Position numbers and translations under genes: made by a program
The notes under the pieces: model-generated
What the model was told of the DNA's origin: nothing
The model's input: the letters and a program-made list of their open reading frames with translations, nothing else
The model's database searches: none
In this document: positions 1 through 54,069 of the stretch, one piece after another
Numbering within the stretch: position 1 is the stretch's first letter
How the letters are laid out: the number at the start of each line of letters is the position of its first letter
Assembly (NCBI GenBank): GCA_004335835.1
Contig: RWJK01001755.1
Coordinates: 1-64,000 of the forward strand
DNA: 64,000 nt
Reading direction: 5' to 3'
Source: Scenedesmus sp. ARA3
Taxonomy: Eukaryota; Chlorophyta; Chlorophyceae; Sphaeropleales; Scenedesmaceae

Positions 1-2535
1 TCAGCTGTGCCTGGCGTGATGGACGCGGTGGCCTGCACGCGCACTGCTGCTGCTGCCGCCTTGCTCTGGCCTGTGTAGCTGGGCAGCGTGAAGGTGAAGC
101 AGGAGCCCTTGCCCTCGCGGGAGCGCACCCACAGCTCGCCGCCGTGCGCCTTGACCAGCTCCTGCGTGATGCTCAGCCCCAGGCCAAAGCCGCCGTACTG
201 GCGGCTGATGCTGCCGTCAACCTGCAGCATAGACAGCATAGACAGGCACGCAGGCGTCCGTGGCTCAATTGAAGCTGCAACCTCCCAGGTGCTGTTCCAA
301 GAGCAGCACAGCGCAACGCTCTTACATGCAAGCTAGCAGGCAGCAGCTCATCAGTCAGTAGACATGCCCTGCAGCCGCCTCCCGGCCTTCCAAGCCTTCC
401 AATCACGCTACACATCATGCAGGCTGCTGTTGCAGACTGCTGCTGCAAATTGCTGCCGCGCCGCACCTGCTCGAAGGGCAGGAAGATGCTGGCCAGCTTG
501 TGCTTGGGGATGCCCACGCCTGTGTCGCTCACGTGCACCGCCACCCACTGGTGCTGGCCGTCGTGCCAGCTGGCAGACACGCGGATGGTGCCCTGGCGCG
601 TGAACTTGGCGGCGTTGCCCAGCAGGTTGTTCAGCACCTGACGCCAAGAGGCACGGCACGCGGCACAAACACACGCAGCAAGTTCAGGGGGTGTTACGGC
701 AGTACACATCGCAAACCTGGCTGTATCATTGCAGCATTTCAGCGCGCTCTAGATGACACACGGTGCGTGCTGTGCAGCTGTCTTTGCCCAGCTTGCTGCT
801 GCACCACACCACGTCACCCGCCCCACACTGCCGCACCTGGATGATGCGCCCGCTGTCCGCCCACACCGCCATGCCCTCAGGCACCTCGTTGCGCAGCGCC
901 ACCTCGTTGTCCACCAGGCTGCGCGTGAGGTCGGACACATCCCCCACCAGCTGCCGCAGCTCCAGCCGCTCCTGCTTCAGCACCAGGCGGTGCTGCCGCA
1001 GCGCTGCAGCGTCCATGACGTCGTTGATCAGCGCCAGCAGCCGCGCGCCGCTGGTGCGCACGATGTAGATCTGGCGGCGCACGCTCTCGTTGAGGATGCC
1101 GCAGCAGCCCGACAGCAGGCCCTCCGAGATGCCTGCGGGCGAAAGAGGGGCAGGGGAGGCAGGGGCAAGGGAGGCGCATAGTTTGAGCGGGTGTGTGGAG
1201 TAAGGGACGGTGTACATTCAAGAGGGACTGCGAACCAACGCACACACAAGGCAAACACAAAAAAAAACCTGACCCAGCTCTTGTTGTAGTAACATCACAC
1301 ATACTTCAACATCACAAATGGCCAGCAAGTGCCTTAAAAGTCAACAGCGGGTAACATGCAGCTCGCCGCAGCGGATGTGCCGCCGTCCCCCACCCCTCCC
1401 TCCGCCGCGCACCTATGATGCCGTTGAGCGGCGTGCGCAGCTCATGGGACACGCTGCTCATGAAGGCGTCCTTCTGCTCGATGACGCGCTTCAGCTCCTG
1501 GATGAGCGTCTGGCGGTGGCTCTCCTGGATCTGGCGCATCACGCCCTCGCGGCGGCAGTCCATGCCCTTGAAGCTGCCCAGCATCAGCCCGCAGCTGAAC
1601 ACCACCTGTTGGGGGGGTACAGCGCGCCGGCAGCAGGCAAACAGCATGCGCAGACCAGCGGGTTTCACGGGATGGCTTTTAGCATACCTAGTCTGGAGCC
1701 AAAGAACTTGTTAGTGTGCTGATGAAAAAGGATCTCTAGGGGTCATATGCATCACGGCTACAAGAGCAGAGACAGGCCGGCAGCGCAAGCATGGTGAGCA
1801 TGTGGACATCAATGCAGAGGCTGCAAACTGCCCATGCATGACACAGCTGACACTCATGTAAACTCTCCGTCAACGGCATCCACAAGTGTAACAGCCAAGC
1901 ACAATTGCTGATGCAGGCAGAAGGGCAGCAGCAGCAGGCGTCACACCTTTGCGGCGAAGTCGCAGCACAGGTTGACCACCTCCTCCGCCTCCAGCCCCAC
2001 CAGCCCAAACATGCGCAGGTCCCAGATCACGCCAAACGCACTCCACATGATCTGGCGCGGCAGCGGCACACACGGCACAACAATGCAAGCAGCACATAGT
2101 GAGGTCGGGAAGGCAGCATGGAGAATTGGCCAGTGCATGCTGTTTGGGCCTTGCAAGGGCCTGCTGCGGACAACAGCTGGTAGACACACCTGACAACATC
2201 TGCTGACTTTGCTTCAGGACAGCAAATTGCATGCAGGCATGCAGTGCTCAGTTGCTGCTGCTGCTCACCATGGTCGTGTAGTACACAAAGGTCATGGTGT
2301 GCCCAGCAGCGTGCTTGCTCACAACAGCCGCAGCCCTGCAGGCACAACAGCGCAGAAGACAGCGCATCATAAAACTGCACAGGGGTGCACCAGCTGCTAG
2401 GCGCTGGTAGCCCCTTCAGACGAGCCAAATTGTTGAGATACTGTTGGCTGACGACTTTTTCCGCTATAAACCAGGCGGCTGTGCACCGGAAATATGTGCT
2501 CCATGTGCTGAGCGAGTCCTGCTGGCAGGGGTATT

Positions 2536-2570
<35 letters not shown>

Positions 2571-4527
2571 ACCCTCTGCCGCAGCCTCCGCAGCTGCTGC
2601 TGCTGCTGCTGCTGCACTCACTCTTTGAGCCCTTGGTGCAGGTAGGGCACCAGCGGCAGGAAGAACATGTGCGACAGGCAGCCCAGGATCACTGCAGCCA
2701 GCAACACACACCACACCAAGGCACACAGCACAGTCAGCCAAACTGCCGCGCCCAGGGGCACACATGGCGTGCTCAGCTGCGGCACATTTATGCTGGCAGC
2801 ACAAGCAGCTGCAGCACGCGCACCAGCAAGTGACATCCTGCAAGGTGCTGCTTGCTGCTGAGCTACTGCAGCTGCAGAGCTGACTCCTCCAGAGTCCTTG
2901 CAACCAGCAGCACCGTGCTTGCTGCTGCGTTGCCGCTGCTGCATTCATGCTGCAGCACTGCTTGTTGCTGTGCAGCGCACCCGACAGCGAGCCTGTCGTC
3001 ATCGCTCCAGCGGCGCCAGTCACCAGCATCAGCTCCACGCACACAATGGCCTCAATCACCTGCACATGCAAAGGGGCGAGGCACCCGCAGCTAAGCTCAG
3101 AAGGGCTGCTGCTATCCGATCCACCTGCAGCAGCCTGCACTGTCGCTACTGCTGCAGAGGCATTGCCCGCTCCCAAGGCACCACTCAGTCGCTGCTGCTA
3201 TTTCTGCGCAACTGCTTCGCTGACTGATGCCCATCACCTGCCTGCTGCTGGCACCAGCGCTCCTTCCAACCTGCAAACCCTAACCCCCAACTGCTTGCTG
3301 ATGCCACAGCCCCAGCCCCAGTGTGCTCTGTGCTGCTGTCTGCCAGGCAGGCAGCAGCTGCGCATGCGCCTGGCGCACCTGCTTGCGTGAGATGCTGGTT
3401 GAGATCATCTTCACCAGCAGCAGGATGGTGGGCGTGGTGTGCATCCAGCAGATGTAGCGCTGCAGCATCACCCTGCAGGACAGCAGCACGGCAATTGCTG
3501 TGTCAACAACCAGCACACACACTGGAGCTCCACGCTGGCGTTTGACAGCTGCGCAGCACACATGTGAGGCCTGCGAGGGCTGTGCCAGCAACTGCCCGCC
3601 TGGTGCCGGTCACAGCAGCAGATGCGGTGCTAACGTCTGCCTGCACAGCACTTGATAGCCCCTGCTGCTTGCATAGCTCCTGCTGCTGCTGCTGCTGCTG
3701 TGGTGCTCACACTGTGCCGTTGGGTGCCGTGCCAATGGTTGCCCAGCCGTAGCGCACCAAGGCATTGGTCAGTGTGGCCATGCCCTTCACGAAGGCTGGC
3801 AGCAGCACCATGTCCAGCCTGCTGGTCTTCAGCTCAAAGCATGCACTCAGCACGTCAATGACAAAGGCCGTGCCAAACATGAACATGGAGCGGTCGTACA
3901 CCACGATCGGGACCTACGCAGCGAGCAGGCACAGTCAGTTCGGTTGCAATGAGCTCACTCTGAGCACCTAGCCGAGGAGTGAGTCACCATGTTGAGACGC
4001 AACCATTCAGCTGCTGCCAGACCAATGACACGGCATGTTCCGGCAGCTTTGCTGGCCGCCATCATGTGTGGATTCACGAAAGCAAGGCTGGTTCTGATCA
4101 TGCAATGCAAGGATGCAGCCAGGTCTCTGTTGCTGGTGGTCAGGTGAGTCAGCCTGTGTGCGGTGCGTGGCATGCTCACCTCTGCCCGCCATGTGGCTAC
4201 AGCCTGCTCAGAGTGCAGTACGCTCCTTGCCAGCAGCGACAGCAACATATAGGAGGCGATGCCCAACCTACATTCACAATAGCCATTCAATGGTCAAGTC
4301 CTTGATGCAGCAGCTGCTGCTGCTGCTGCATTCCAGTGCCAGGCAGTTGCCCAGACACCAAACGCTGCACAATTCTCCAGCGCGCCTCACATGATCCAGA
4401 TGACTCCCAGACGTGTTGGTGAAGAGCTGGCGCTGTCTCTGTACACAAGTCGTGCGCCATCAGCTGGGCCCTGCTGATGCTGCTTGGCACCACCACCTGC
4501 CTCGCTGCTGTTTTCGCCGCCCGGCAT
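1..4527 (-). CDS. HKR: Histidine-kinase rhodopsin (HKR-type opsin), 5' part; continues past the left edge
   Basis: Predicted light sensor: a retinal-binding opsin joined to a two-component histidine kinase. Exons (minus, 5' to 3') 4527-4391, 4267-4180, 3913-3711, 3472-3379, 3059-2981, 2691-2622, 2507-2391, 2335-2269, 2051-1947, 1605-1413, 1132-837, 637-467, 221-1 keep one frame for 613 codons. Start is ATG at 4527. Residues 1-45 are hydrophilic. Transmembrane segments follow; helix C carries RYxxWxxTTP (about 148-157), helix F reads WSAFGVIW (about 288-295), and helix G ends DFAAK, giving Asp316 and the Schiff-base Lys320. HisKA has SHELRTPLNGIIG with phospho-acceptor His374. HATPase boxes are NLLGNAAKFT (N), DTGVGIP (G1), FLPFEQ (F) and GGFGLGLSI (G2). 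The Asp85 position is Cys151 and the Asp96 position is Leu. Algal relatives continue into a receiver and often a guanylyl cyclase; that part lies outside the window. Family is firm; the loops around 2391-2507 are the least certain exons. Confidence 0.88.
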
Positions 4528-5905
4528 GATGGCACAGTGACCGTCATATGCATGTATATGTCACGATTGATCCATGCCAAACAGGCGAGAGGAGAACATG
4601 CAAAACTTTGTTGCCAGATTGTGCGCAGTCAGGTCGTTACCAAGCTCAGCTATGTGTGTCGTTTGTTCGTGTAAACATTTCGTGTCCACGCCTTCGTGTT
4701 GAGGCCTTTCAGCAGTGCTGTTTCGCTGTGCGCTTGATGATACGTATCTCACCCTATCTCTGAAATGACACGAACAATCCCGCAGCGTTGATCAGCAGGG
4801 TGCAAAACCTGTATTAGAAAGGGCTTGAATGTACTTTCAAAAGCTTTTGAAGATCCCGTTGAGCACAAACACTTCTCCAGCAAAATGTCAGGACCGACCA
4901 GACACCCTCCAAGACGACGACGGTATGAGCAACCCAAGTCTGGGGTTGGCTCACCCGCTTGTGGCGCACTTGTAAAACGTTTCGTACACGCGTACATGTA
5001 CATGCTACTGCAGTTCAAGCAGTAACGAGCTGCTGGCCTTGAAAGCACGTAATCGGCTGCTGTTGCTACAGCCTGCTCCTGCACAACCTCTCCTCTGTAG
5101 CAGCCAAAACTCAACTGTGTGCAGGCGTGATAGAACAGCAGCATAACCACCCTGCTCACAAGCTGCAAATGTATATTGATGGCAGGTTGCTTATGCAAAC
5201 GGACAGGTATTAATTAAGTAATCATGCGCGGTGCAGCAAGGCGGCAACACTCTTTGCACCAGGTCTCTTGCCCAGTTCCGGAGACTGGAAACACCCCTTG
5301 ATGAAAAGAGCAGGTTGAAACTAATCGCCCTCCTTGACAACACGGTTGCTTGGTACTTTAAACAGTCTCACTGAAACTAAAACTGGTCTGTTGTTGAACC
5401 AGACGCCCGCGGCACAGCTCCTAGCACAGCAGTCAAAGGTGAATTGTTGCCTTCGACATCAAACAAGTACGTCAGTGATATTGCAGCAGCGGAACACCTG
5501 CCACACCGAAGTCTGCAGCTGGCAGTGAATCGGCAGTGCCGTTGTTGCTGCCCGGCAGTAACATTGGCACATGGGTACATGGCCATAGCTACTTTTGTGC
5601 CGGAAGACATGCTTCAAATTCCGTCCAAGAAGGTTGTTCATGATGCTGGTACTAGTAAGCCACCGGCCATCCACATACAGAAACAAACGTTCCGGCGCTG
5701 GCTTTCCTTGCACATACTCTGTGACATTGAAATTAACTCGTGGTTGCCAAAGAATCCTGTGGTTGATATGAATAAAGCTGTTAGCTGTTAGTTGTGCCGT
5801 GCGAAACCCACCACATGCTGCTGCAGGTGGGCGCCTAGAGTATGAGGCTGTCTCGCAAGTCGCCCAACAGCGTCAGGGCAGCACACCAAAGCACGTTCGT
5901 ATCGT
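4528..5905. promoter_or_regulatory. Divergent intergenic region between the opsin-kinase and OPR genes
   Basis: This 1.4-kb stretch separates two genes read outward, so it should hold both promoters and 5' UTRs. It is visibly richer in A+T than the flanking exons. I see no convincing exon, RNA gene or named motif; open frames here lack the codon bias of neighbouring genes. Confidence 0.45.
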
Positions 5906-6211
5906 ATGTCTCATAGGATTGGCATGCACCACGTGTTGCAGGGCTTGCAGCCACGCTGGCCACCCAGTGCATTCAGCAGCAGCGGCGGCAGCAGCGGCAG
6001 CATCAGCTGTCCTATCCGTAGGTCTGAAGGGCAGTGCACACCCCAACGGCAGTGGCAGTCAAACCTAGTAGTAGCAGCAACTAGGCACTACATTCAGGCA
6101 TCCTCACAGGATGAGCTTGTGGGGACGCATGTGCTACGTGCAATCAGCAGCCAACACGCATCTCTCCAGCATAAGCAGCAGCAGCGTCAGCAGCAACAGC
6201 AACAACATCTA

Positions 6212-6243
<32 letters not shown>

Positions 6244-6720
6244 CCATCCAGGCAGACATGTGCAGCTGTCTGCAGCTGGGCAGGCGCGCATGCTCACCAG
6301 CCGCATCAGCTCAGCAGCAGACGCAGCGCAACTGCTGCTGGTGCTAGGGCAGCATGAGCAGCAGCTCGACTGCATCCATGTCAGTGCGGCTGTCAAGCAG
6401 GCCTGCAGGGTGCTGCGCATGCACCTGGCAGTGCCGGAGGATGCAGCAGCAGGGGACGCTCAGCAGCTGACACCACAGGCGCAGCTGAAGTGGATGCAGC
6501 AGCTGCAGCGGCTCGATGTGCAGCTACGCCTGCAGCAGCTGCGGCAGCAGCAGCAGCAGCAGCAGCAACCACTGGCACATCAGCAGCAGCAGGGTGCAGA
6601 GGACCTGCAGACCTCCAACACCCACCAGGAGCAGCAGCAGCAGCACCTGCAGTGGGTTGTAGATCAGCAGCTTGCGCCACATGCATTGGTGCAGCAGCAG
6701 CTGCAGCAGCACATTGAGTC

Positions 6721-6753
<33 letters not shown>

Positions 6754-9463
6754 AGACAACTGGCTGCTGCTGCTGCATCTGTTCCAGCTGGTGGCGCAGC
6801 ACGCACCTAGCATGGCCAGCCAGCAGCTGTGCACATGCCTCAACGGCCTGTGCCACCTGCTGCTGGCCCACCCTGGCCTGCCGCTGCTGGGCCTGCAGCC
6901 ATACCGCGCCGCCTTGCAGCAGCTGCTGCAGGCCTCAGCGCAGCAGCTGCACAGCTTTGACCATCGCGGCCTCAGCGTGCTGCTGCATGCTGCAGCGGCA
7001 GTTGCGCGTGCCCCGCTGGGGCTTGCTCCCAGCACGGGCTTCATGAAGCGCTGGTACAGCCGCAGCAGGGCAGTGATGCAGCAGGCCAGCCCGCTGGACC
7101 TGGCAATGGCCAGCTGGGCGCTAGGCAGGCTGGGAGCTTACCCTCCCAGCCAGTGGACTGCGGAATTTTTGATACACAGCAAGGTGAGCTGGCGGTGGCA
7201 CTGCCTGATGTGGCAGTCCGGCCGCACATGAGGCTCGGAGCTACAGGCACAGCAGGGTTCGTACAATACTGCTGCTGGCTCGAGGTAGTTCTGTGCACAG
7301 CTGCCAAACTTTGCGCCCTTTGTTCGTTGCTAAGAGTGCATGTTGTTGGCTGTGTTTCTGCTGCTTGAGCAGGCGGCGATCCCCCGCCTTGGGCCGCATG
7401 AGCTGCTGTTGCTGCTGCTGGGCGTGTCCTGCATGGAGCGCGTGCCCCGCCGCAGCAAGACAGCAGCAGCGGCACGCGCTGGCTGGCTGCCAGCTGCAGC
7501 ACGGCAGCTGCAGGCCCACCTCAACAGCTTAGACCCACAGCAGCTGAGTGGTGCACTGCTTGCATTTGGCAAGCTGCGCTACGCGCCCAGCCCGCAGTGG
7601 CTCGCAGCATACAGGCAGGAATGGGTCAGCCTGCAGCACAAGCTCAGTGCCAAGGATCATGCCCTGGTGCTGTGGGGAGTGGGGTCCCTGCCAGTTGCTG
7701 CAGCTGCAGGGGCGCAGCAGCTGGCGTGGGCCCGGCAGCTGCAGACAGCACTGCAGCAGTCGGTGAGCAGGCCAGCAGCAGCTGTGGCGGCTGTGGCCTT
7801 GCTGAAGCTGCGGCAGGCAGCACAGCAGCAGCAGCAGCAGCAGCAGGGAGGCAGCCAGGAGCTCTCCTCAGCTGCTGATGGCGTTCAACAGCAGGGAGAG
7901 CAGCAGCAGCAGCAGCAGGATGCGCAGGCGCTTCAGGAGCCTCAAACACAGCAAGCAGCAGCAGAGACTGCCATCACCCTGCAGCAGGGCCAGCAGCAGC
8001 AGCAGCAGCAGCAGCAGGAGGAGCTGCTGAGCAGCGCCTCGCTGCTGCACCCCACCGACTGCGCCATGGCTGTCTACGCGCTCGCCCGGCTGGGCCCTGC
8101 CAGTGTGGTGCCTGAGTTTGCTGCCTTCTGGCTAGCGCAGGCGCGCAGCCAGCAGGGCAGCATGAACAGCCAGGAGCTCGCCAGCTGCGTCTGGGCACTA
8201 GGCAGGCTGAAGCTACAGCCGCCTGAGGACTGGCTGCAGCAGCACCTGAGCTGTAGCGCGCAGCTGGCGGGCAGCATGAGCCACCAGCAGCTGGCAATGC
8301 TGCTGTACGGCTGCGCACGGCTGCAGGTGAGGCGGGTGCACTGTGGGCGGTCAGCTGCTGCTGGTGGTGATGCGGCTTGACATGGTGTTGTTGCATGGCC
8401 CACGCGATTAACTTGACCTGCACTGCACTTACAATGACCTGCACTGCACTTACAATGTGCCACCTTGACCTGCCCCTGCAGTTGTGGCTGGCTCTCTTAG
8501 CTTTGTATGTGGCTCTTAGCTTTGTATGTGGAGGGAGGTAACATCCCACGCCAAGTCGCAGATGTGTCATTGCTGTTTTCTTCACGCCACATTCTCTTCC
8601 ATGGTTGTAACCATTTATCTTGCACCCGCCGCTGCATGTGCAGTACCTGCCTGACGTGCTGGTCACCGCTGAGCTGCTGATGTCAGCCGCGGAGCAGCTG
8701 CCCGCCTTCAGCCCGCACAGCCTGGCGCTGCTGCTGCACGCGCTGGGACTGCTGCGCCTGAAGCCTAACAAGGAGTGGATGGCGCTGGCGCTGGAGCAGG
8801 CTCGCTACAGGTTCATGTGAGGAAAAAGCAATATTTCAGAACAACATTTATCCTCACTGAGGACATGTATGTACTTGCAGCTGTGTTAGTCACGTGTGTT
8901 TGTTAGCAGACATGCGTCAGGCCGGCGCATCCTGCGTAAGCTGTGCTGTGCATGACAAGCTGCTGCTGGTCAGCTGCCAATGGTGGGGTGCCTTTGCACT
9001 GCTTCTGCATCATCATTCAGCCGCACTATCTGATGGTGCGCCTTGTTTCTGACAAACCTGTGCTTCGCTGGTGCCTTGCCTCATGTGCTGCTGCTGCTGC
9101 TGTCACAGGCGCTTTGACGCGCAGGACTTTTGCGGTGTGCTGCTGGGGCTGTACCGCATGCGCTACCACCCGGGCCAGCGCTGGCTGGATGCATATGTGC
9201 AGGCGCTGGCGCTGAAGGTGCAGCTGCTGCCTCCGCAGCGGCATGCGCTGATTGTGGCTGTGCTGCGCGCGATGGGCTACAGCTGCCAGGGGCGGCCCTT
9301 TGCCTGGGTCATGGATGAGGCTGCAGTGGCCGCCATGTGTGACAGGGATGGCAGCAGAGGTAGCAGCAGCAGCAAAAGCAGACCCCAGGAGAACAGCGGC
9401 AGTAGCAGAGGCAGCAATGACACGGCTGATGCGGCGGTGCAGTCAGCACCTGCTGACTTGTAG
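5906..9463 (+). CDS. OPR-like (octotricopeptide repeat) organelle RNA-binding protein with polyGln tracts
   Basis: Four exons, 5906-7183, 7373-8326, 8644-8816 and 9109-9463, join in frame to 919 codons and a TAG; the codon split at 8816/9109 restores ATG (Met). The first ~60 residues are Ser/Arg-rich with few acids, as in organelle transit peptides. From about residue 290 a repeated pattern appears: a hydrophobic helix ending ALGRL or similar, then a Pro-rich turn and a Trp, for example WALGRLGAYPPSQW, LLAFGKLRYAPSPQW, WALGRLKLQPPEDW, LHALGLLRLKPNKEW and LYRMRYHPGQRW. This is the helix-PPxxW pattern of OPR proteins, which bind chloroplast or mitochondrial RNAs in green algae and control their stability, splicing or translation. 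Long Gln runs (for example codons at 6541-6570, 6721-6750 and 7991-8017) interrupt the repeats. Target RNA cannot be read from sequence. A generic helical-repeat protein is the alternative. Confidence 0.75.
8414..8531. repeat. Two short tandem duplications in an intron of the OPR gene
   Basis: Within intron 2, a 21-bp unit is repeated exactly (8414-8434, 8435-8455), and a 19-bp unit beginning ctcttagc is repeated exactly (8494-8512, 8513-8531). They look like recent slippage duplications and carry no coding potential. Confidence 0.9.
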
Positions 9464-10138
9464 GCAGCAGTTGATGTTGTGGGCACAGCTGGTTGCCTGC
9501 AGCAGATGACATGGCAGGAATCCTGTCCTATTTCGTGATGAAGAGCTTGCTAAAGCCAGCCGACTGCTTGTGAATACACACGTACTTTGTCAAGGAGAGC
9601 CCGGATGATTTTTCAAAACATACAGGGCCTGTAACACCTGTGACACACTTGGTTCAGGCTGATCCTAGCACCTGCAGGATCTCGCCATGCACTGTCTGCG
9701 CACCCCACAGCATGGCATCCCATAACTGGTACTGATTGCAGCTGGCCGAGCCCATGTTCGTTCACTTGTGACCATTGGCACGGCTCATAGGATGAAGTGC
9801 CGGCATCCCACTGGGCGTGGTTCAGGGGCTTACATCAGCATAACTGTCATCCTCAGCAAGCAGGACGCAAAGCTGTAGCCCGAATCCGATGAGATGGCAC
9901 ACTGAGCGATCTGCACTTTACGTTTGACATTCCTGCTCCTGCTTGCTTGGTCATCGGGTGCACTTCCCCGTTGTCCTCGGACCGAAGCGCAGTTGCTGTG
10001 TACCGCGGCACCGCTTTGAGGTGTCACTGCAGCAAACATACTTCATAATGCAAAGGCTCAGCACAGAATCCGGCATGCGTTGAAGCACTGTTGAGGTTGC
10101 AGCTGAGGCAGCAGCAAGCAACCACCAAACAAGGTCTC
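9464..10138. other. Intergenic region: OPR 3' UTR and upstream region of the next gene
   Basis: Both flanking genes read rightward. The stretch holds a TGTAA motif 167 bases after the OPR stop and otherwise nothing I can name. There is no in-frame ATG between the stop at 10046 and the start at 10139. Confidence 0.5.
9630..9634 (+). terminator. Candidate polyadenylation signal TGTAA for the OPR gene
   Basis: TGTAA is the usual near-upstream polyadenylation element of chlorophycean nuclear genes. This copy lies 167 bases past the OPR stop codon. A five-base motif is expected about once per kilobase by chance. Confidence 0.35.
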
Positions 10139-11668
10139 ATGCCCTCTCCTGCCGGCTTGCCGCACCTGGACATGGCACTCGCGGAGCACAGGCATGATGA
10201 ACAGCAGCAGCAGCTGCAGTGCAAGCCTGATCAGCAGCAGCGACTGCAGCAGGAGCTTCCTGGCTTCATACACCCTGCTGTGCAGCACGTCTCGCAGCAG
10301 TACAGCTGGGATTGCGGGCTAGCATGCGTGCTGATGGTGCTGCGTGCGCTGGGCTGCACCAGCTGCGACATGCACCAGCTGCGCAGGCTCTCCCAGACCA
10401 CCAGTGTGTGGACTGTTGACCTGGCACACCTGCTCGCTCGCTTCGGCGCAGCAGTCACCTTCTGCACCATCACCATAGGCATTAATGGGGATTATGCCAA
10501 TGAATGGTTTTACATGGAGCACCTGGAGGATGACGAGAAGCGCGTGCAGCAGCTGTTCAGCCAGGCAGCGCAGCTAGGCATCCGCTTGCAGGAGTGCAGC
10601 GTGCCCTTGCAGGAACTCGTCACAGCAGTGGCCAGCGGCAGGCAGCTCGCCATCCTGCTGGTAGACAGGCGCAAGATCGACCCCTGGCAGGCTGCAGCAG
10701 ACATGGCTTGGAACTACACCACGGGTGTCACCAGTGCCACAGGTTACACCGGGCATTACATCCTGCTGGTGGGCTATGAGCCGCCTGCAGCAGCGGCTGC
10801 AGCTGCAGCCCCTGCAAGCAGTTGCAAGCCCAGCAAGCAGCCAGGCAGCGGCGGGTGCACCTGCAGCAGCAACAGCAGCTGCAGCAGCAACCAGAGCAGC
10901 AGCAGCATGTGCTGCTGCAGTGGGGAGGGAGCAGCAGCAGCAGACAACCCGCCGCAGCAGCCAGCACAGCAGCTTGCTTGCCAGCAGGAGGATGCTGGCG
11001 CTGCAGCAGAAGGTTGTGCACCAATCACCAGCAGCACTGTGAGCGACAGCAGCCCGGAGCAGGCCACGGCAGCAGCGGATGCGCAGCATGCCAATGCAGC
11101 GCAGAGCAAGGCCTGTGCAAGCATGCTGGCCAGTGGCGCTGCGCAGCTGGGGTACTTCTGGGTGCAGGACCCTGCGCACTCGCGCGGGCCTGTGCGCATA
11201 CCTGTGTCTGTGGTGGAGAGTGCACGCAAGACGTTCGGCACGGACGAGGACATCCTGCTGGTTGATGTGCCGGCAGGCTCGGCAATGCAGCACAGCAGCA
11301 GGAGTGCGGTGGCAGCGGCTGCTGCATCGCTGCCACAAGCAGCAGTAGCAGCAGCCACAGGGCCACAGCCAGCAGCAGCAGCCAGTGCGCCATCAACCCT
11401 GGGCATTGCAAGCTGGCTGGGCATCGGGGCGAGAGCTGGTGCTGCTGCGCAGTCGGCACAGCAGCAGCAGCAGCAGGAGGGCATGGAGGGGGTGGAGCAG
11501 CAGCAACAACAGCAGCAGCAGTCGTATGAGCAGTGCACACTGCACTGTGATGGGGCTGTGCCAGCTTCCTGCAGCTGCAATGACGGGGCAGCAGTGTACA
11601 ACAGCGGCGGCAGCAGCTGCAGTAACTGCAGCAGCAGCGGCAGGTCGGGCGAGACATTGCAAGAATAG
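10139..11668 (+). CDS. GUCD1: GUCD1 / plant GC1-like protein (C39-peptidase-like fold)
   Basis: Single-exon gene of 509 codons. The first in-frame ATG after an upstream stop (10046) is 10139. After a Gln-rich leader comes the family core: SQQYSWDCGLACVLMVLRAL near residues 58-77, a region ending GYTGHYILLVGYE near residues 202-214, then YFWVQDPAHSRGPVRIP near residues 339-355. Cys in WDCG, His in GHYI and Asp in the DPA motif match the Cys-His-Asp layout of C39-like cysteine peptidases; the family is named for a guanylyl cyclase activity reported for Arabidopsis GC1, and no class III cyclase motif is present here. About 120 Ala/Ser/Gln/Cys-rich residues are inserted between His and Asp. The C-terminal ~130 residues are also low complexity. 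No transmembrane segment. Family assignment is firm, biochemical role is not. Confidence 0.85.
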   Translation: MPSPAGLPHLDMALAEHRHDEQQQQLQCKPDQQQRLQQELPGFIHPAVQHVSQQYSWDCGLACVLMVLRALGCTSCDMHQLRRLSQTTSVWTVDLAHLLARFGAAVTFCTITIGINGDYANEWFYMEHLEDDEKRVQQLFSQAAQLGIRLQECSVPLQELVTAVASGRQLAILLVDRRKIDPWQAAADMAWNYTTGVTSATGYTGHYILLVGYEPPAAAAAAAAPASSCKPSKQPGSGGCTCSSNSSCSSNQSSSSMCCCSGEGAAAADNPPQQPAQQLACQQEDAGAAAEGCAPITSSTVSDSSPEQATAAADAQHANAAQSKACASMLASGAAQLGYFWVQDPAHSRGPVRIPVSVVESARKTFGTDEDILLVDVPAGSAMQHSSRSAVAAAAASLPQAAVAAATGPQPAAAASAPSTLGIASWLGIGARAGAAAQSAQQQQQQEGMEGVEQQQQQQQQSYEQCTLHCDGAVPASCSCNDGAAVYNSGGSSCSNCSSSGRSGETLQE

Positions 11669-52488: not shown

Positions 52489-54069
52489 TCACATCAGGCC
52501 TGCTGCTTGCAGCTTGGCCAGCTCAGCGCCAATGGCCTGCCTCAGGCTGTAGTTGGGTTGCAGCACAGCACTCGACAGCGGCTGGCCCGTCACCGGTGAC
52601 ACATCACGCAGCCGCAGCCAGTCGCCGATCGCGCCGCGCTCGTACGTGTGACCATCAGCCGCCATCACAGGATCACCCATGATCTGGCCGCTCAGCGGGC
52701 AGATGAAGTGCCGCGGCCACTGCACGCAAGCGCTGCTGCTGCCGCCGCCAGCAGCGCCGAGCCCAGCTGCGCCTGCCATGCCGCCCCACCCTGCTGCATG
52801 CTGCTGCTGGCTCAGGTCGCCAAATGCACTCGCAACAGCCGCCGCCATTGCATCCCGGTTCGCTGCACTGCTTGCTGAAGATGGCCCGATAGGCCCCAGC
52901 CCTCCGCCCATGCCTCCAGGCCCCGCAGCGCCTGCTGATGCCCCTCCAGGCCCCATCAGGCTTGCGCCAGTTGTACTGGCCCTAAAAGCCAGCTGGCTAT
53001 GCCTGCCGCTGCCATCGTTCAGGCTGCCAAACTCAGCCATGGCTGCATTGCCGCCAGCCTGCTGCTGCTCCCAGGTGGCCCCAGGAGCAGCGCCAGGGTA
53101 TGATCTACGTGGCATGGATGCTGCCTGCTGGCCACCCATGCGATGCAAGCCGCCACCAGGACCAGCCCCAGCAGCAGCAGCAGCGCCGTAGCCGCCGCCG
53201 TGCCCTGTAGCAGCTAGCAGTGGGTTGATGCCGCCTGCTGGTGCGCCGGATGCAGCAGCAGCAGCAGTAGCAGCAGCGAGCTGCGCCTGCAGCAGGGCCT
53301 GGTCCATGCCTAAGGCAGCGAGGGAGGCAGGGTCACGGCCGCCTGAGAGCTGCAGCGCTGCTGCTGCTGCTGCCGCCATGTGTGCGTCCTGCTGGCCATG
53401 CATGGGCATGGAGTAGCTGCTGGCCATCTGCTGCAGCAGCGCAGGGTTGGCCTGCAGCGAGGGAGGAGAAGATGCAGCAGGTGAGACGCAGTCAGGAGGC
53501 AGCACAGCACGTTGCAGCAGCTACAGCAGCCCTGCAGTACGGTGCAAGCCGCTTCAAAGGCCATCGCCCACAACCCCACTCAACGAGTACGACAAGTAGT
53601 TCAGGCACAACAGGATGCCTTGAAACACAATGAGCTTCAAGCAGGCGTGCAGGCCCCCGCACCTGGCCAAGCAGCGCCGCATGCAGCCCGCCTCCGCCAG
53701 CCGCCGCTGCTGCTGCCAGGTACTGCTGTAGCCCTGCGGCCCCTCCAGCCATCTGCCCAGCAGCGCCACCATACCCTCCTAGCTGCGCCAGCAGGTCAAG
53801 CTGCCTGTTCGCTGCTGCTGCTGCTGCACCCTGCTGGCCAAGCCCTGCTGCCGCCCCCAGCCCTTGCGCGTTCAGCGCTGCTGCTGCTGCCGCTGCCTGG
53901 TAGGGGTTGGCAGCAGCAGCACTGCCCCAGGCACTCTGCAGGCTGGCTGCTGCCGGCATCTGCTGGTAGAGGCCCGCAGCACTTGCCCCGCGGGCCTGCG
54001 CTTGCGCTAGAGCTGCTGCTGCTGCCAGCTGCGGGTTTGCAGCAGACATCAGCTGGCCGTAGATGGAGG

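Follow-up and report, generated by a model that had tools for sequence, protein, structure and literature searches.

Histidine kinase rhodopsins (HKRs), in which a microbial-type opsin with the retinal Lys is fused to HisKA and HATPase_c domains, differ from one another in the residues around the retinal and in the light to which they respond. COP5/HKR1, with Met85 and Asp212 (bacteriorhodopsin numbering), toggles between UV and blue states (PMC8006352; also stated in part of PMC8815786), and the residues listed for it in part of PMC7693036 are Met85, Thr89, Thr90, Leu96, Asp212 and Glu204. The Cop5 kinase failed in a chimera (PMC8006352), so that a full set of kinase boxes is no proof of activity. 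HKR2/COP6, with Gln85 and Asn212, mediates a green light response with an action peak near 540 nm (PMC8006352); according to part of PMC8815786, this protein has no carboxylates at the common counterion positions and yet is most responsive to green light, which indicates that colour is not determined by the counterion residue. In Cr2c-Cyclop1, the cyclase is held in an active state by the kinase and receiver in darkness and is inhibited upon illumination (as described in part of PMC6284317).

HKRs with Cys at position 85 are also on record. The combination of Cys85, Leu96 and Asp212 is already tabulated in 2020, in the part of PMC7693036 that includes Table 2B, for Cop11 (C95, T99, T100, L106, D279, L263, E271, K283), Cop12 (C95, T99, T100, L106, D221, L205, E213, K225) and GpRh2 (C91, T95, T96, L102, D217, L201, E209, K221). 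According to the same part of that paper, position 85 is Asp or Glu in just 14 of the 47 modular rhodopsins, and AsRh4 alone has retained Asp96. The Cys receives no discussion in the sections consulted. Proton pumping is not expected for nearly all such modular rhodopsins. The only functional item found is that a Chlamydomonas strain lacking COP11 shows normal ammonium chemotaxis (part of PMC11621555). The literature searched, which included few subscription papers, yielded no spectrum of any Cys-type member, and searches for D85C and for Tetradesmus obliquus with opsin returned no paper.

The window analyzed here, a stretch of 64,000 nucleotides, corresponds to positions 1-64,000 of contig C1349 in the Scenedesmus sp. 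ARA3 genome (87.3 Mb, 1,567 contigs). A real gene that continues beyond the window runs on its minus strand from position 4527 to base 1, with 12 exons in phase and a 574-residue open reading frame that leaves the end of the contig. The splicing was derived from splice sites, phases and homologous proteins. Exon 1 (4391..4527) contains a putative start ATG (4527-4525), the N-terminus and the beginning of an extra helix, TM0, that is completed in exon 2 (4180..4267); both are delimited by splice sites, the former also by phase. The predicted total of 8 transmembrane helices is consistent with a hydropathy peak at residues 42-58 of the window model and with the 8 helices in the AlphaFold model of a paralogue (not of the window protein). 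Exon 3 (3711..3913, 203 bases) encodes helices A and B, exon 4 (3379..3472, 94 bases) helix C, exon 5 (2981..3059, 79 bases) helix D, exon 6 (2622..2691, 70 bases) helix E, exon 7 (2269..2335, assigned by splice sites and phase) the E-F loop and the start of helix F, and exon 8 (1947..2051, 105 bases) helices F and G. The linker and the H box follow in exon 9 (1413..1605), the second DHp helix and the start of the ATP-binding domain in exon 10 (837..1132, again from splice sites and phase), the N box (634-602), the G1 box DTGVGI (526-509) and the F box in exon 11 (467..637), and the G2 box GGFGLGLSI (194-168) with the start of a linker in exon 12 (1..221), which is cut by the contig end.

The splice between helices D and E, initially placed differently, was corrected to 3059-2981/2691-2622, with an intron at 2980-2692, by taking the boundaries from the paralogue L021, whose donor, acceptor, phases and lengths (79 and 70 bases) match. 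The initial exon 5/6 splice, which gave a 645-residue model with the retinal residue at Lys352 and about 71 intron-derived residues, was dropped after this comparison; a protein search with residues 1-400 of that model, the intron-derived residues included, had produced no match at E <= 0.001. Three independent checks concur on the correction. The Bac_rhodopsin match in Pfam, 62.3 bits split over two stretches before the correction, becomes a single stretch of 80.8 bits when the whole corrected model is scored; the alignment with the Chlamydomonas incerta homologue P0007 requires a single gap in 492 columns; and the spacing between the Cys of helix C and the Asp of helix G becomes 126, the same as in the printed Cop12 (221-95) and GpRh2 (217-91). 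Along with Bac_rhodopsin, HisKA (52.4 bits) and HATPase_c (106.2 bits) exceed their cut-offs, so that the gene qualifies as an HKR by domain composition.

Helix C reads RYICWMHTTP, with Cys151 (TGC, codon 3450-3448) at the position of bacteriorhodopsin Asp85 and Leu162 at that of Asp96; translation bears out the first-pass annotation on both residues and on the RYxxWxxTTP motif. Helix G ends in CDFAAK, with Asp277 (1961-1959) at position 212 and the retinal Lys281 (1949-1947), and the H box SVSHELRTP carries His335 (1446-1444); the N, G1, F and G2 boxes are all present. The codons of the retinal Lys and of the Asp212 equivalent and the boxes of a complete kinase half were thus correctly recognized in the first-pass annotation, but the numbers 320, 316 and 374 given there for the Lys, Asp and His have to be replaced by 281, 277 and 335 after the splice correction, the number 320 having counted intron sequence. 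In the predicted protein, Asp277 is the only carboxylate of helix G and the sole one at the two usual counterion positions. Since both Asp85 and Asp96 are absent, the usual rules would not make this protein a proton pump, as had been proposed. A channelrhodopsin can be ruled out as well, given Cys85 and the lack of a match to ExxxTC, which we take to be the channelrhodopsin pattern and which does occur in L020.

Two protein searches with Cys-type queries, restricted by length and scoring only candidates that share many words with the query (7998 and 2601, respectively), provided 17 different homologues. Residue 85 in these is Cys in 12, Met in 3, Gln in 1 and Ser in 1, counts that are not frequencies among all HKRs because the sampling is skewed toward the Cys branch. 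The Cys proteins include those of Chlamydomonas incerta, Volvox africanus, Haematococcus lacustris, Chlamydomonas sp. UWO 241, Sanguina aurantia and Tetradesmus obliquus. In the maximum-likelihood tree of 17 rows (the window protein and 16 homologues, P0002 being left out because it nearly duplicates P0001), a single branch with support of 98/95 separates the 12 Cys rows from the rest, and 98% of the bootstrap trees concur. The row nearest to the window protein is P0008 (81% identity over 536 columns), the gene model of which is missing part of helix E and the B-C loop, so that its Cys-to-Asp spacing of 110 is not comparable; P0016 has Cys85 and Asp212 along with an Arg at 96, where the surrounding stretch appears to be mispredicted. 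Judged from these alignments, Cys at the counterion position is a trait of the whole branch and not a single-gene oddity, and the striking departure that the first-pass annotation saw in it does not hold up, the trait being branch-wide and already printed for Cop11, Cop12 and GpRh2.

The window protein has the residues of the latter group, namely Cys85, Leu96, Asp212, Glu204 and Lys216. Its relative in C. incerta, P0007 (59% identity), equals the Cop12 row at all 8 listed residues and their numbers and is therefore almost surely the Cop12 orthologue. A common branch with Cop11 and Cop12 is indicated by proxy, through the location of P0007 within the 98/95 branch, the C. reinhardtii sequences themselves being outside the tree.

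The Cys branch differs from the other HKRs at more than this one site. A scan of 254 positions revealed 24 that are branch-specific (the same in at least 10 of the 12 Cys rows and in none of the 5 others), which is no evidence of function because any deep branch has such positions; two of the five outgroup proteins are near-identical COP5 sequences, and in helix B the numbering may be off by about 2 residues. At this threshold, the Cys branch has Asp95 in helix A, where the others have Asn, Lys118 in helix B and Glu183 in helix D. Gly or Ala is found at 253, the counterpart of bacteriorhodopsin 186, where all five others have Pro, and Asp257 (Asn in P0016) directly follows the position of Trp189. 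These linked changes may reflect packing or ancestry only.

The same genome encodes paralogues that help to delimit the type. In L021, on contig C1351, the intron positions and phases are those of the window gene, and the exon lengths are equal for helices A-B (203), C (94), D (79), E (70), F-G (105) and the H box (193). Its opsin part is 99% identical to P0001 and P0002, both named Tetradesmus obliquus, and all three have Glu, not Asp, at 212; P0001 has one receiver stretch. The COP11/COP12 class is thus not uniform, as it accommodates a paralogue with Glu212 and one receiver domain. A Gln-type paralogue on L019 retains Pro at 186 (FPLVWLL). The AlphaFold model of the paralogue has a mean pLDDT of 63.1 and a pTM of 0.39; its best 50 Foldseek rows are mainly histidine kinases, and its matches to rhodopsins are those of the VIA list.

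The downstream part of the gene probably lies on another contig. The best match of the P0008 tail in the same genome is contig C918, from base 1 on the plus strand, in three stretches that are 82-100% identical; with both contigs ending at this point, C918 very probably continues the window gene, exon 12 included. The link that we infer between C1349 and C918 spans about 79 residues of P0008 (505-583) covered by neither contig. All further features are on the plus strand of C918, outside the window, and their placement in the same chain hangs on this link: two receiver domains, of which the first occupies 1-381 and 688-912 and the second 1108-1212 and a stretch from 1476 onward, and a cyclase-like domain followed by a long low-complexity tail, with a stop after 4079. 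Two receiver stretches are likewise present in all five other Cys-type proteins scanned (P0003, P0004, P0005, P0007 and P0008). The cyclase-like part scores 35.2 bits against a Pfam cut-off of 21.9, but the Asp, Asp, Asn and Arg found in four columns of the P0013 cyclase correspond here to Gln, Lys, Gln and Gln; the column of the second metal may be off by one residue, and in P0003 and P0005 it still holds an Asp. This domain looks degenerate and dead, and if C918 is indeed the continuation, the intact metal and transition-state residues of a 2c-Cyclop are missing.

Altogether, the window gene is best described as a COP11/COP12-type histidine kinase rhodopsin of the Scenedesmus group, a reading to which, with the following mechanism, the Asp277 counterion and a pigment that leans to the visible included, a probability of about 0.85 can be assigned. 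Asp277 would be the main counterion, with Cys151 as a neutral hydrogen-bonding residue, and there would thus be no proton transfer of the Asp85 type. Isomerization of retinal would move helix G and the helix that runs from it into the DHp domain, and this movement would alter the autophosphorylation of His335 and the flow of phosphate to the two receiver domains. If Cr2c-Cyclop1 is a guide, the effect of light would probably be inhibitory. The output would be handed to either a partner cyclase or some other protein of the phosphorelay, given that the protein's own cyclase-like domain looks dead. A visible pigment (blue to green) would seem slightly more likely than a UV one.

The main competing proposal is a UV/blue bistable receptor similar to COP5/HKR1, in which a neutral residue at 85 leaves an easily deprotonated Schiff base and a thermally stable UV form is reversed by blue light or UV. 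COP5 is itself UV/blue bistable with Met85 and Asp212, and its residues closely resemble those of the Cys type; this speaks against a plain visible pigment and makes the proposal a substantial minority possibility. It is countered by the green sensitivity of HKR2/COP6, where neither position holds a carboxylate, and by the departures of the Cys branch from COP5 elsewhere (Gly or Ala rather than Pro at 186, Asp or Asn at 190). The UV or bistable pigment suggested in the first-pass annotation is, by comparison with COP5, possible, but the case of HKR2 shows that it is not derivable from sequence. A broader and rather doubtful suggestion is that the Cys branch represents a photochemically distinct class of enzyme-rhodopsins, with a retinal and membrane core rebuilt with Cys85 and a two-receiver phosphorelay that replaces the protein's own dead cyclase, the thiol or the new carboxylates perhaps holding a UV or bistable state of the Schiff base. 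The light chemistry of the Cys class is worth more as a question than the single gene: the branch offers linked changes to dissect and merits measuring as a class, and the expression of a Cys-type opsin would test how a natural rhodopsin stabilizes the Schiff base without a carboxylate in helix C.

It is unlikely that Cys151 is redox- or thiol-active, with light sensing tuned or gated by the oxidation state of the Cys or by a transient bond close to the Schiff base. A merely tolerated substitution would not need the invariance that the Cys displays in the 12 Cys rows, but packing or hydrogen bonding explains this invariance equally well, and in NeoR, D140C, a Cys introduced at another site of the retinal pocket, causes only a moderate spectral shift (according to part of PMC8815786). 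A pseudogene, or an opsin that no longer senses light, is very improbable: the usual catalytic residues are gone from the cyclase-like domain, but the 12 exons are open with proper splice sites and phases, the Lys and the kinase boxes are intact, and relatives across many genera retain the same residues. Least credible is a wrong exon or a misalignment that hides the real counterion elsewhere, because, even though introns were assigned from sequence and the D-E splice of the first-pass annotation was indeed wrong, a single uninterrupted exon encodes helix C with its RY..W..TTP and annotated proteins of several algae have Cys at the same residue. These annotated homologues also rule out a sequencing error behind Cys151. 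In the paralogue L021, an exon identical in length (94 bases) and phase encodes RYVCWMHTTP, so that no different exon for helix C comes into play, and the homologues carry Cys in the same column, not an Asp elsewhere in this helix.

Compared with the known systems, the window protein is thus closest to Chlamydomonas COP11/HKR7 and COP12/HKR8 and Gonium GpRh2, with which it shares Cys85, Thr89, Thr90, Leu96, Asp212, Glu204 and Lys216. The Cys-to-Asp spacing of 126 is common to Cop12 and GpRh2, whereas that printed for Cop11 is longer (184), and the sole listed residue that differs is Phe at position 194, which is Leu in all three. COP5/HKR1 of C. reinhardtii (P0009) is similar in the succession of opsin, kinase, receiver and a cyclase-like domain that lacks catalytic residues (all four are missing in P0009, in agreement with its authors, PMC8006352) and in the combination of a neutral residue at 85 with Asp212; it differs, at 37% identity, in Met85, a single receiver domain and Pro at 186, and the window protein has neither Met85 nor a place on the branch with COP5. 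COP6/HKR2/Cr2c-Cyclop1 and Vc2c-Cyclop1 have the same order of opsin, kinase, receiver and cyclase, but combine Gln85 and Asn212 with an active, light-inhibited guanylyl cyclase, the residues of which appear to be lost here. Finally, the rhodopsin phosphodiesterase of Salpingoeca rosetta, the best VIA match of the paralogue model, has the 8-helix enzyme-rhodopsin fold but, unlike the window protein, Glu85 and a phosphodiesterase output.

A paralogous histidine kinase rhodopsin (HKR) of the Cys-type, i.e., with Cys at the position of bacteriorhodopsin Asp85, lies elsewhere in the genome (L021, G000:C1351:87000-96900; plus strand, exons at local positions 1735-9575). Its opsin is 99% identical to those of the Tetradesmus obliquus proteins P0001 and P0002, the 212 position is occupied by Glu in place of Asp, and there is a single receiver domain. 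The start of contig C918 (L030, G000:C918:1-8000) is probably the 3' part of the window gene and encodes two receiver domains, a cyclase-like domain that lacks the usual catalytic residues, and a poly-Gln-rich tail.

A further HKR is encoded on the plus strand of L019 (G000:C1401:108000-117500, local positions about 3000-9000). This opsin is of the Gln-type, with RYVQWTHTTP in helix C, and retains the helix F Pro and a helix G with DYGAK; in the kinase region, several near-repeated stretches surround the H box. In addition, L020 (G000:C1265:54500-63500) contains a minus-strand exon with RYAEWLLTCPV (4330-4473) and, close to it, a helix G DLLSKN; judging by its motifs, this exon is putatively channelrhodopsin-like.

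Long intronic CAG/CTG runs are present at window positions 2530-2620, in many other introns and in L021 (7310-7400). In open frames, these runs are translated into poly-Gln, poly-Ala or poly-Leu stretches. They make ORF lists artificially long and overwhelm protein searches that rely on word matches.

The window also contains a minus-strand U-box domain (52492-53520, 53.2 bits) and a plus-strand open frame with PF09778, Guanylate_cyc_2 (10049-11665, 196 bits). The latter lies approximately 5.5 kb from the start of the opsin gene; such proximity by itself implies no functional link with the kinase rhodopsin.

The predicted proteins of two relatives contain wrong stretches within the opsin: in P0008, the homologue nearest to the window gene, helix E is at least partly missing (wrong stretch at residues about 150-185), and in P0016, another Cys-type homologue, the helix C tail is substituted (residues 288-300). 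Because of such stretches, published HKR residue tables, if built on gene predictions, may contain similar errors. The longer Cys-to-Asp spacing of Cop11 (PMC7693036, Table 2B), 184 versus 126 in Cop12, GpRh2 and the window gene, might be one of these.
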